64,000 bases of DNA. It comes from Norana najaformis (lineage: Eukaryota > Annelida > Clitellata > Crassiclitellata > Hormogastridae). Every line of letters starts with the position of its first letter. The first letter of the stretch is position 1. A program made the translations under genes and the position numbers. Location of the stretch: positions 30,263,851-30,327,850 of the forward strand of contig OZ029914.1 in NCBI GenBank assembly GCA_964023275.1, written 5' to 3'. Below are positions 31,701-35,919 of this stretch, piece after piece. The notes under the pieces are model-generated. The model was not told the DNA's origin. It ran no database searches and was given only the letters and a program-made list of their open reading frames with translations.

Positions 31701-33979
31701 TGATACATTGTGTGTTGTGCTAATGGAACAGCCGAAGACTGGAATGGAGTGTATGTGGCTTTTATGTTTCGTGCAGATCATAACGGAGACACAGCAAGCA
31801 AAGCAGTCACTGAAAGACATTGAAGCTCGTCATAATGACATCATTAAGCTGGAAAACAGCATTCGCGAGCTCCACGATATGTTCATGGATATGGCAATGC
31901 TCGTGGAAAGCCAGGTCAGCATGCTTAGATGTGTGTGTGCTTGCATTATAAATGTGTACATACATGTGGACATGCATGTGAAGCTGAAAAAAGCTAAAGG
32001 TCTCATTTGTTTATGCTGCTTTTTAAACTACTCTGAAGCATACTGCATGTATTGATAGGTCTTTGGACTGAGTTTCAAACGTGACCACGGTAATTCGACA
32101 GCAGAACACCGTTTTTAACCTCCCAACTTATGTTGGTGCAATCAGCTGGCCTGGTATTTCATAATGGTTACCTTCCAAGTCTCAGCTTTGCTTAACTTGA
32201 CTGTGCCTGCCGGCATCATGTCAACTGCAACAAGCAGCTTGTGGGCTTTAGTGACCATTGGTAGATGCCTTGTGCATTAAGTAAAGACGTTATACCTTCC
32301 CATGTAGTCCTGCAATGCCAAAGCTGAATGCATTTACAATGTACGTACACCAGAGACTCCTTATAACATACATCATTATAACAAGAATTCTGTTATTACT
32401 TATGTAGGTAAGTAAGTAATGCATTTGTTAAAATGGTCATGGGCATGGATTCAAAGCAAAATTTAGTTTGGCTTTAGAAAAATTACTTCATTAGAAGACG
32501 GCCTCAATTCAATATAAGCAGTTCTTGATATAGCTGGTAAAGACAGAGTTGTTAGAACACTCTGATGCGCACACACACAAACACATTAACGAGGAATCGA
32601 CTGCTATTTGTGCTTGCATGCATGCCATTGGACTTTTGTAATGTCACTAACTCTGACTGAAGGACACAAATACGGTTCTTTTGGTAATGAGAGATTAATT
32701 AAGTTTTTTCATTGATGGATTACGTAACTAACAGATGTCTCTAATTGTTCTTATTCAGGGTGAGATGATTGATCGCATTGAGTTCAATGTTGAGAAGACG
32801 GTTGACTACATTGAGTCTGCAAAAGAAGATACAAAGAAAGCGGTCAAATATCAGAGCAAGGCGCGGAGGGTGAGCTGTTAACAGCAGACAAGTTTCCAAC
32901 CATTTGCTTCAATATGCTTGGCTTTTTTAAAGTTTGCAGTTTTCTCTGATTTTGAAGCCTGCTTTTCCCTTTCCAAGAGAATCCACTGCAAAGTAGTTGA
33001 ACAACAGAATGTCTTTAAAAACTGCAGTCAACCCTGTATAATGTTTGAATGGCTAGGAAGAGTTGTAAGATCGAAGGGTAGTGGATGAATAACGAATCCT
33101 AAGTAGTCTCTTGGTTGCACGGTGACTGACTGATAGCATGTTTGCCAGCTCACCTGCGTTCGGGGTTCTAAGCTTAGCATTGTGTTAATTTGCATTTCTA
33201 TATTGAGTTATGGTAACCTACATGGAAAGGTTTTGGAATTCCTATTGTCATGTTTGCACTTAAGCCAAAACTTCCTTAAACCTCAGGACTGTGCTTCTGA
33301 GCTCTGTTGTTGATAAAAGTATGATGTATACATAATAATAATAATAATAATTAGCAAGTTCTAATGCACCGATGTCTAATGCACAAGACATGAACCGATG
33401 TGGCGCCAAAGCCAAGCCACAATCAGGTCAATATCCCGAAGGTCAGTCAGACAGAGAGGCAGCCTATGGTGGAGAAGCAATTTGAAACAGGTAAGTTTTA
33501 AGTTGAGAATGAAATGACAGAGGCGACTGAGCAGATATGGTATATCACATATATAGTATACACATACCTTGTTACATACATACATAGATTCATGCTTACA
33601 TACTTACGTACTTACATACATACATGCATAAACACACATGCATACACACACATGCATACACACACATACATACACACACATGCATGCATACACACACATG
33701 CATGCATACTTTCATGTAATGAATGAGTGATTACCTTACCTGCCTGTTGACGTCACCTTGTTTGATCCTTTGTTGTTTGCTTGTTTATCTTGTCGTTAGT
33801 TAAGCCCAATTAGCCCGTGTTCCATTTTTTGCTTTGCATTGAATGACATTGCCTTTGCATGTGTTTAGTTGTCTGCTGTTTTTTCTTTGTAGAAAAAGAT
33901 CTTTATAATTATCTGCATTGTAATAGCCCTGCTGGTTATTGCTCTTATCATTGGCCTGTCTGTCGGCTTAAAACGCTGA
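11238..33979 (+). CDS. STX1A: Syntaxin-1 (plasma-membrane Qa-SNARE), isoform with proximal terminal exon
   Basis: Target-membrane SNARE that pairs with SNAP-25 and synaptobrevin to drive exocytosis, notably at synapses. Exons: 11238-11270, 26933-27022, 28032-28131, 28998-29072, 29354-29427, 29959-30067, 30831-30904, 31777-31914, 32759-32869, 33893-33979. All are GT-AG, all phases agree; 891 nt, 296 residues (vertebrate STX1 about 288). The N-peptide [11 protein letters not shown] is encoded alone in exon 1. An acidic linker follows, then the Habc bundle (about 35-160, with [21 protein letters not shown] and [11 protein letters not shown]). The SNARE motif is about 199-261 ([20 protein letters not shown]), with the ionic-layer Gln at 231 as the last codon of exon 8. 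A C-terminal anchor lies at 271-292. No frameshift or missing residue was seen. It could be called STX1 rather than STX1A, because invertebrates usually have a single syntaxin-1. Confidence 0.95.
13672..13791. repeat. (TA)n microsatellite
   Basis: About 120 bases of almost pure TA, interrupted by GTGTATG near 13711. It lies within syntaxin-1 intron 1 and is self-complementary. Confidence 0.97.
14930..15115 (+). repeat. Copy of the CTACAGCGCCC repeat with an open frame
   Basis: It starts with ATCGTAATCGTAAT, then TTTCTACAGCGCCC and a GGGGACCAGCTTATTCAC block. It is open for about 60 codons ([21 protein letters not shown]). Frame and sequence match the minus-strand copy at 10525-10719. No inverted partner was seen downstream, so this is a single-arm copy. 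Confidence 0.6.
15869..15927. repeat. Short tandem duplication
   Basis: Two adjacent identical copies of an about 31-bp unit, TCAAACTAGACAGACATTTG followed by CTGGAATTGG. Recent local duplication in intron 1. Confidence 0.9.
18221..18590. repeat. Three tandem copies of an about 124-bp unit
   Basis: Each unit begins near CAAGCTGTGCCCTATAGGAA and ends near ATCAAGGTTCCAGTAACAC. Copies 2 and 3 are almost identical, while copy 1 differs at several sites, so the array grew recently by unequal exchange or slippage. No coding potential was seen. Confidence 0.92.
21895..22790. repeat. 56-bp minisatellite, about 16 copies, palindrome in each unit
   Basis: The typical unit starts with TTTGACTGCTGTACTACAG and continues CAGGGTCAGCCAGTGTAAAG to GACATGCCACCA. 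Most units hold the 17-base palindrome CTGCTGTACTACAGCAG, two 8-base arms around one base. Variants (CTCTACCACAG, GTGTCATG) are shared by neighbouring units, and one copy near 22105 carries a short deletion. The last unit is the most diverged. It lies in syntaxin-1 intron 1. Confidence 0.95.
23730..24075 (+). mobile_element. LINE 3' ORF2 fragment (CR1/L2-like)
   Basis: A broken frame reads LANLHWLPV, then a [13 protein letters not shown] stretch, then corrupted C-terminal motifs. The LHWLPV and QPTYL blocks typically follow the reverse transcriptase in CR1/L2/jockey-type LINEs. Several stops and frameshifts mark it as dead. Confidence 0.65.
31508..31697 (+). mobile_element. tRNA-derived SINE in syntaxin-1 intron 7
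   Basis: The head has A-box-like TAGCCTACTGG, GGTTAGAGCGCTTGGCTTGT and a decayed B-box GGTTCAGGTGTCC. The tail CTTAGTCATTAG with TGAATAAATGCTGAAATAA matches the minus-strand copy at 2350-2535. It ends about 80 bp before exon 8 of the syntaxin gene. Confidence 0.75.
33547..33712. repeat. CATA/CACA-rich microsatellite
   Basis: Interrupted CATA, TACTTACG and CACACATGCATA units in the intron just before the first alternative terminal exon of syntaxin-1. No coding value. Confidence 0.9.
33893..33979 (+). CDS. STX1A: Syntaxin-1 terminal exon 10a (anchor and stop)
   Basis: It follows a pyrimidine-rich acceptor (TTTTTTCTTTGTAG) and encodes 28 residues, [20 protein letters not shown] then GLSVGLKR, ending in TGA. 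It supplies the whole transmembrane anchor. It is phase 0 and compatible with the exon 9 donor. As it carries its own stop it acts as an alternative last exon to 35836-35919. Two AATAAA words (34375 and about 34590) could end this isoform's transcript, but both lie in the hAT relic or its flank. Confidence 0.9.
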   Translation, partial: KKIFIIICIVIALLVIALIIGLSVGLKR

Positions 33980-34335
33980 CAGGTGACAGTGGTGCTTCTG
34001 CAGTTCCCCACCCGAGCGGGTATTGACGTTCATCTGCTTTTTTATCGTTGATTTTAGTGTCCTTTCTAGAGTTTGCTTTTGCATGCTAGTCATTTTAATA
34101 AGTCAGACACTAGAGTTCTGATATGCTTGATATGATATGTTAACTGTGATTAACCACCGTGTGTGATGGCATGTGATGTAATGTGGCTTTTTATAATGCC
34201 TTTAAGACGCTCTCTCCAAAGAGCCAACATAGGCACCCAGCCACAAGCTTCTTGATAGATGCAGCAGTTTTTGTGAGGTACTTAGAAGTGCTATATTAAA
34301 TGTTTTGATACATACACACACACCACATACATACA

Positions 34336-35480: not shown

Positions 35481-35835
35481 AATGAAGGATAAGCTTAATG
35501 CTATGCATACGTACATGTATAAATACACACACACACATGGGTGTCTAGGCTTTACATTGGTTTGCATTTACAGTCAGTACTTTTGCATTTGCAGTATTCT
35601 ACCACTGATAAACATTTTTACTTATGAGTCAATGCATGGAGAAGTGTTTAAGGTTGTTTTTTATCAGAAAACTTCTTTTTCTGATTTACTGGTAATTAGA
35701 AGCCACAGCTGTGACATATCTTAAAATTGTCCACAATTTTAGGAGAAGAGCAGAGAGGCTTGAACCAGGCCTCTCTGCAACCAGATGCAACAGGATTGGT
35801 TCAAGTGTGACTCTTTTCATTGTGTTTTGTTTCAG

Positions 35836-35919
35836 AAATTGATTTTCATCATCATCTGTGTGGTGATCACACTTGCTATACTGATCCTTATCATTGGACT
35901 TTCAGTTGGCCTGTCGTAA
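35836..35919 (+). CDS. STX1A: Syntaxin-1 alternative terminal exon 10b (anchor and stop)
   Basis: After acceptor TTTTGTTTCAG it encodes 27 residues, KLIFIIICVVITLAILILII then GLSVGLS, with TAA. It aligns without gaps with exon 10a (shared IFIIIC, VI and IIGLSVGL blocks), so the two arose by exon duplication. Using it gives a 295-residue isoform (888 nt). The two anchors differ in mid-membrane residues and in the C-terminal tail: KR in 10a, a bare S in 10b. Confidence 0.9.
   Translation, partial: KLIFIIICVVITLAILILIIGLSVGLS

Follow-up and report, generated by a model that had tools for sequence, protein, structure and literature searches.

A duplicated membrane anchor exon, probably used as alternative last exons, in a syntaxin-1-like gene of the annelid Norana najaformis

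Background

Alternative membrane anchors are already known for the syntaxins of the worm Caenorhabditis elegans and of mammals, and a syntaxin-1-like gene of the annelid Norana najaformis adds a further case. The gene lies on the forward strand of a 64,000 nucleotide stretch of DNA (GenBank assembly GCA_964023275.1, contig OZ029914.1, positions 30,263,851 to 30,327,850), called the window here and numbered from its first letter, and it has two copies of its last, anchor-encoding exon, designated 10a and 10b.

In the published account (PMC4946901), exons 8a and 8b of the C. elegans gene unc-64 encode different membrane anchors, giving UNC-64A and UNC-64B. The 8a form is mainly neuronal, and intron binding by the CELF protein UNC-75 promotes the use of 8a in neurons. 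UNC-64B was unable to replace UNC-64A in locomotion and either form rescued the axon regrowth of hypomorphs, although the opposite result for locomotion, obtained in another study, is cited in the same text. The same source describes two C-terminal anchor isoforms of mouse Stx2 that are produced by alternative splicing, one of which is lowered by knockout of Celf2. Mammalian Stx3A and Stx3B have alternative C-terminal parts encoded by one gene and differ in exons 9-10 (PMC11476516). No paper containing the peptide IIGLSVG was found in the open-licence literature, and among the matches listed from that literature for syntaxin anchor variants of molluscs, of Aplysia, of metazoans or from duplicated exons, none concerned the present case. 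STX was not mentioned in the available part of the main text of PMC9741552.

The N. najaformis gene resembles unc-64 in having two putative alternative last exons with different anchors. It differs from unc-64 in that the differences between the anchors include a juxtamembrane lysine and in that the CELF motifs tested are missing from the introns. In Stx3A and Stx3B the difference extends to the latter half of the SNARE motif, whereas the duplication in the window gene is confined to the last exon. The parallel with the C-terminal variation of unc-64 had been drawn in a preliminary description of the window, and PMC4946901 supports it.

The gene is of interest for several reasons, 1) it adds to the animals that probably have a choice of two membrane anchors for a single syntaxin, 2) it offers a natural anchor pair in which the juxtamembrane charge differs while the anchor cysteine is kept and 3) the paralogues in the same genome provide a handle on the order of exon and gene duplication.

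Results and discussion

Two in-phase anchor exons

Exon 10a (33893..33979, + strand) encodes a membrane anchor of 28 letters followed by a stop, and exon 10b (35836..35919, + strand) an anchor of 27 letters followed by a stop. Both are supported by translation, alignment, the anchor exon scan and the tree. Each acceptor is an AG preceded by a pyrimidine-rich tract, in phase with exon 9, and the gene has, as in unc-64, two in-phase terminal exons with an anchor and a stop in each. The two spliced reading frames are open and encode 296 amino acids with exon 10a and 295 with exon 10b. The anchors align without gaps, with 19 of 27 residues identical and 33 of 81 bases different. The juxtamembrane stretch reads KARRKK in the 10a form and KARRKL in the 10b form, the membrane segments differ at six positions, and the tails are KR in 10a and S in 10b. 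The positions, acceptors, complete anchors, stops and gapless alignment of the preliminary description were all recovered, its translations were exact, and the mid-membrane and tail differences that it listed were confirmed by translation and alignment. The difference in the basic juxtamembrane stretch is an addition to that description.

In tblastn searches of the window, 10a and 10b were each other's second match (E 5.8e-9 and 5.5e-9), a likeness well above what chance would give. The next match (20034-20105, E 0.003, 37.5% identity) fell below the thresholds of the anchor exon scan, which yielded 10a and 10b only, and no convincing third copy was present in the window plus 10 kb.

The reading that we favor, with a probability of about 0.85, is that the last, anchor-encoding exon of an STX1/2/3-type gene was duplicated in tandem long ago, giving 10a and 10b, which are probably used as alternative last exons. 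Several observations led to this reading, 1) both spliced frames are open, 2) differences at synonymous sites far exceed those at nonsynonymous sites, with an excess at third codon positions, 3) none of 20,000 neutral simulations retained a comparable likeness, 4) AATAAA signals follow both 10a and 10b, 5) a 10b-like anchor has been kept in a paralogue on another contig and 6) unc-64 exons 8a/8b, Stx2 and Stx3A/3B provide precedents.

Constraint on the duplicated exon

Over the 28 codon columns of 10a and 10b, the first position differs 10 times, the second 5 times and the third 21 times. By the Nei-Gojobori method, the proportion of synonymous differences (pS) was 0.92 (20 of 21.8 sites) and that of nonsynonymous differences (pN) was 0.22 (13 of 59.2 sites), so that the synonymous sites are saturated. 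When 33 random changes were placed on 10a, 18 or more identities were kept in 0 of 20,000 runs, compared with the 19 observed. This simulation, a simple model with a single starting copy, reveals constraint and gives no date for the duplication. The saturated synonymous sites and the simulation together argue for an old exon duplication held by purifying selection, and both 10a and 10b have been constrained as protein. Local alignment of their neighborhoods extends from about 16 bases upstream of the exons to near the exon ends. The 400 bases downstream of the two exons align with a score of 10, no better than shuffles (mean 11.6), and this lack of downstream similarity also suggests that the copies are old. 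The preliminary description had taken the presence of two intact copies to imply selection, which by itself is no proof; the claim is now backed by the way the substitutions are distributed and by the paralogue with its 10b-like anchor.

Three observations weigh against the favored reading. First, the 400 bases upstream of 10a and 10b align with a score of 20, whereas none of 200 shuffles exceeded 17, so the age of the duplication is less certain; that score, computed on unmasked flanks, can reflect tracts of pyrimidines and simple, CA-rich repeats present on both sides. Second, the functional difference could be slight, because both anchors keep a single cysteine, in line with the first of the anchor cysteines in syntaxin-1A (PDB chain), and have nearly equal hydropathy (3.31 for 10a and 3.20 for 10b). 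Third, the three published forms of the UNC-75/CELF motif, (G/U)UGUUGUG, U(G/A)UUGUG and UGUGUGUG, are absent from the introns 32870-33892 and 33980-35835, and the known nematode regulator is therefore unsupported by the sequence. CELF motifs near the alternative exons are a feature of unc-64 and may not be one of all alternative-anchor genes.

Two other motifs were counted in the same introns and not used as evidence. TGCATG, presumably an Rbfox-like motif, occurs 3 times in the intron between exons 9 and 10a (P 0.091) and 4 times in that between 10a and 10b (P 0.037) by Markov resampling, uncorrected for six motifs, and two of the copies sit inside a simple repeat. One of the sites precedes 10a by 37 bases and another follows it at a distance of about 100 bases. 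For TGTT[GT]TT the counts were 3 (P 0.065) and 2 (P 0.41), respectively.

Message ends and predicted protein forms

According to the favored reading, exon 9 would be spliced to either 10a or 10b, and the 10a message would end at its own poly(A) site. Two AATAAA hexamers downstream of 10a, at 34375 and 34583 (34375..34588, + strand), are possible poly(A) signals of this exon, there is an ATTAAA at 34295, and the first AATAAA downstream of 10b is at 37016..37021 (+ strand). These signals are not strong evidence, because 51 AATAAA occur on the + strand of the window.

Alternatively, 10a could be a stop-bearing cassette that is spliced to 10b, both messages then sharing the 3' untranslated region of 10b. 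This arrangement would use a possible 5' splice site immediately after the 10a stop, CAG/GTGACA (33980..33984, + strand, junction 33982/33983), which at 2.78 bits has the top donor score between 33893 and 35800 and exceeds the donors of exons 1, 2, 6 and 7 as placed (1.62, 0.68, 1.45 and 0.18 bits). The junction would lie 3 bases past the stop, a distance at which, under the usual rule, nonsense-mediated decay would not be triggered. However, the scores were computed from human frequencies, three more sites in the same interval score 2.52 to 2.73 bits, 69 of the window's 3664 + strand GTs equal or exceed its score, and poly(A) signals lie downstream of 10a. The cassette is considered unlikely, although it deserves attention, and separate 3' ends for the two messages are preferred.

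The alternative last exons would give two protein forms. Their regulatory and SNARE parts would be the same, and the differences would lie in the juxtamembrane charge, six mid-membrane side chains and the tail. Both exons are probably used, perhaps in a tissue-dependent manner, and the choice of anchor may tune the lipid contact, clustering or sorting of syntaxin. In mouse neurons, as reported in PMC9183232, two C-terminal juxtamembrane lysines of syntaxin play a key part in the binding of phosphatidylinositol 4,5-bisphosphate (PIP2), neutralization of both was more harmful to priming and fusion than reversing a single charge, and release was affected by the juxtamembrane lysines and by the cysteines of the transmembrane domain. 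By analogy, the 10b form may bind PIP2 more weakly than the 10a form.

The remainder of the gene

The gene is complete, with nine upstream coding exons between 11238 and 32869, all on the + strand and with GT-AG borders. They were placed by tblastn with a rat Stx1A query and by their donors and frame. Exon 1 (11238..11270), which encodes 11 residues, was placed by tblastn, donor and frame. Splice borders, together with tblastn and frame, define exon 2 (26933..27022), the Habc exons 3 (28032..28131), 4 (28998..29072), 5 (29354..29427) and 6 (29959..30067), exon 8, encoding the first half of the SNARE motif (31777..31914), and exon 9, encoding its second half and ending with KARR in phase 0 (32759..32869). 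The linker exon 7 (30831..30904) was assigned by tblastn and frame, its donor score being weak. A Pfam scan of the 10a form detected Syntaxin (PF00804, E 3.5e-39) and SNARE (PF05739, E 4.6e-18). The protein has the Habc domain, SNARE motif and single C-terminal anchor of a plasma membrane syntaxin (Qa-SNARE, STX1/2/3 type). The closest solved structures, at the top of a PDB list of 35 sequences, were chains named Syntaxin-1A and S-SYNTAXIN, which we take to be the rat and squid proteins.

Paralogues and their anchors

A SNARE domain search of the same genome (608 Mb, 17 contigs), in which 150 of 238 candidates were scored, gave at least 12 exon matches. Six of the 12 belong to syntaxin-1-like genes, one in the window (contig C2) and the others on contigs designated C4, C6, C9, C13 and C17, and the genome has six or more genes of this kind. 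The paralogues were scanned for phase-0 anchor exons of 20 to 45 codons with a score of at least 35 and a hydropathy above 1.5. The stretches covered were 20 kb in C6, 60 kb in C4 and 40 kb in every one of C9, C13 and C17; a further 7 kb of C4 was scanned by score alone. One credible anchor exon was found in each of the five genes within the scanned stretches, a farther or strongly diverged second anchor being possible. The anchors are KRIFIILCVVITVVILVLILGLSIGLR in the C6 gene, KKLMIIICLIIVIVVIGAIVVGIFS in C13, KKIIILICVAVVIVILVGSLAGAFAP in C17 and KKIIILICVSILLIVIVGSLLGAFVP in C9; that of C4 has 27 residues. The other candidates were dropped, a poor one in C4, a low-complexity one in C9 and, in C13, an alternative start two codons inside the same exon. 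Two classes of anchor can be distinguished, a common 11-residue ending in C2, C4 and C6, and the endings GIFS, GAFAP or GAFVP in C13, C17 and C9. In the C4 gene the last intron spans about 29 kb (C4:12119936 to 12148903), compared with 1.0 kb to 10a in the window gene, and one anchor exon was found there.

Order of exon and gene duplication

The anchor identities over 26 positions were 20 for 10a and C4, 19 for 10a and 10b, 19 for 10b and C6, 16 for 10b and C4, 15 for 10a and C6 and 13 for C4 and C6. A four-point comparison favored the split of 10a and C4 from 10b and C6, with bootstrap values of 0.98 for residues, 0.86 for bases and 0.92 for first and second codon positions. This split was supported by 3 informative residues and the other two by 0 and 0. 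The informative bases numbered 7 for the same split, 0 for 10a and 10b against C4 and C6, and 4 for 10a and C6 against 10b and C4. In a likelihood tree of eight anchors, 10b and C6 were grouped in 89% of 200 bootstraps, while 10a, 10b and C6 stood apart from the remainder in 85%. Constraining 10a and 10b to be sisters was 6.3 log units worse (approximately unbiased (AU) test p 0.028, Kishino-Hasegawa (KH) 0.0565, Shimodaira-Hasegawa (SH) 0.136), and constraining 10a and C4 to be sisters was 4.1 log units worse and was not rejected (AU 0.108).

The grouping of 10b with the C6 anchor, and not with 10a, argues that the exon duplication is probably older than the gene duplication. The simplest account, suggested by a signal of 26 residues, is that the exon was duplicated in a gene ancestral to those on C2 and C6, after which both copies would have been retained in C2 and the b type alone in C6. 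A second account of the likeness between 10b and C6, gene conversion, exon exchange or convergence between the paralogues, would place no exon duplication before the C2-C6 split. The small number of residues leaves room for it, as do the disagreement of the AU test with the KH and SH tests against 10a and 10b as sisters and the long branch of the C6 body (0.63). Nevertheless, a tree of the body (exons 5-9, with exons missing for C4, C17 and squid) also sets C6 next to the window gene, weakly (SH approximate likelihood ratio test 86.9, ultrafast bootstrap 62), which fits simple descent. Exchange or convergence is therefore regarded as rather doubtful, and descent from a shared duplicated exon is preferred.

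In the body tree the squid and rat syntaxin-1 sequences join the C13 gene (ultrafast bootstrap 59), again with weak support, so strict syntaxin-1 orthology of the window gene is uncertain. The name syntaxin-1 given in the preliminary description was accordingly too specific, in view of this placement and the number of syntaxin-1-like genes in the genome; syntaxin-1-like stands.

It is conceivable, although quite improbable, that the pair of KK-type and KL-type anchors is ancestral to bilaterians, one ancestral syntaxin gene having carried both and later paralogues across phyla having kept one or both. If so, anchor choice by splicing would have turned into anchor choice by gene copy. In vertebrates, STX2 would have both anchor types, one starting with KK and the other with KL, like 10a and 10b, and STX3A the b-like type. 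The anchor of STX2 isoform 1 has 15 matches with 10a and 14 with 10b, and that of isoform 2 has 12 with 10b and 8 with 10a, which is not decisive. The human STX3A anchor shares 19 of 27 positions with 10b and 16 with 10a, which hints at an anchor pair of great age and is not a test.

Finally, exon duplication can leave unused copies, but it is very improbable that 10a or 10b is a relic that has so far escaped decay, because, with synonymous sites saturated, both have kept frame, phase, acceptor, stop and 19 of 27 residues and a copy that old should have decayed, 8387 of the 20,000 neutral runs having gained a stop, although use may have been lost recently.

Other features of the window

In a search for relatives in viral contigs, 35 stretches fitted a pattern and none was confirmed. 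An open frame at 50988-51989 (- strand) contains a LEM domain (Pfam E 5.1e-10) and, toward its end, a segment that by eye is hydrophobic, and is likely to encode an inner nuclear membrane protein. The open frame at 53264-53794 (+ strand) matches SPMIP1, sperm microtubule inner protein 1 (Pfam E 9.3e-35). Two tandem arrays are present. The first (21779-22917) has a period of 56 bases and about 20 units, its central 300-base registers being 93-96% alike. The second (52449-52752) is identical to itself along much of its length when shifted by 8 bases, and it translates as CLPA or AGRQ repeats; the frame text flanking it resembles, by eye, that near 14900. A dispersed repeat at 10369-10701 and 14937-15144 has inverted arms of 208 bases with 83% complementarity, together with a direct pair of 100 bases at 75%, and similar open-frame text recurs, by eye, near 52480-52870.

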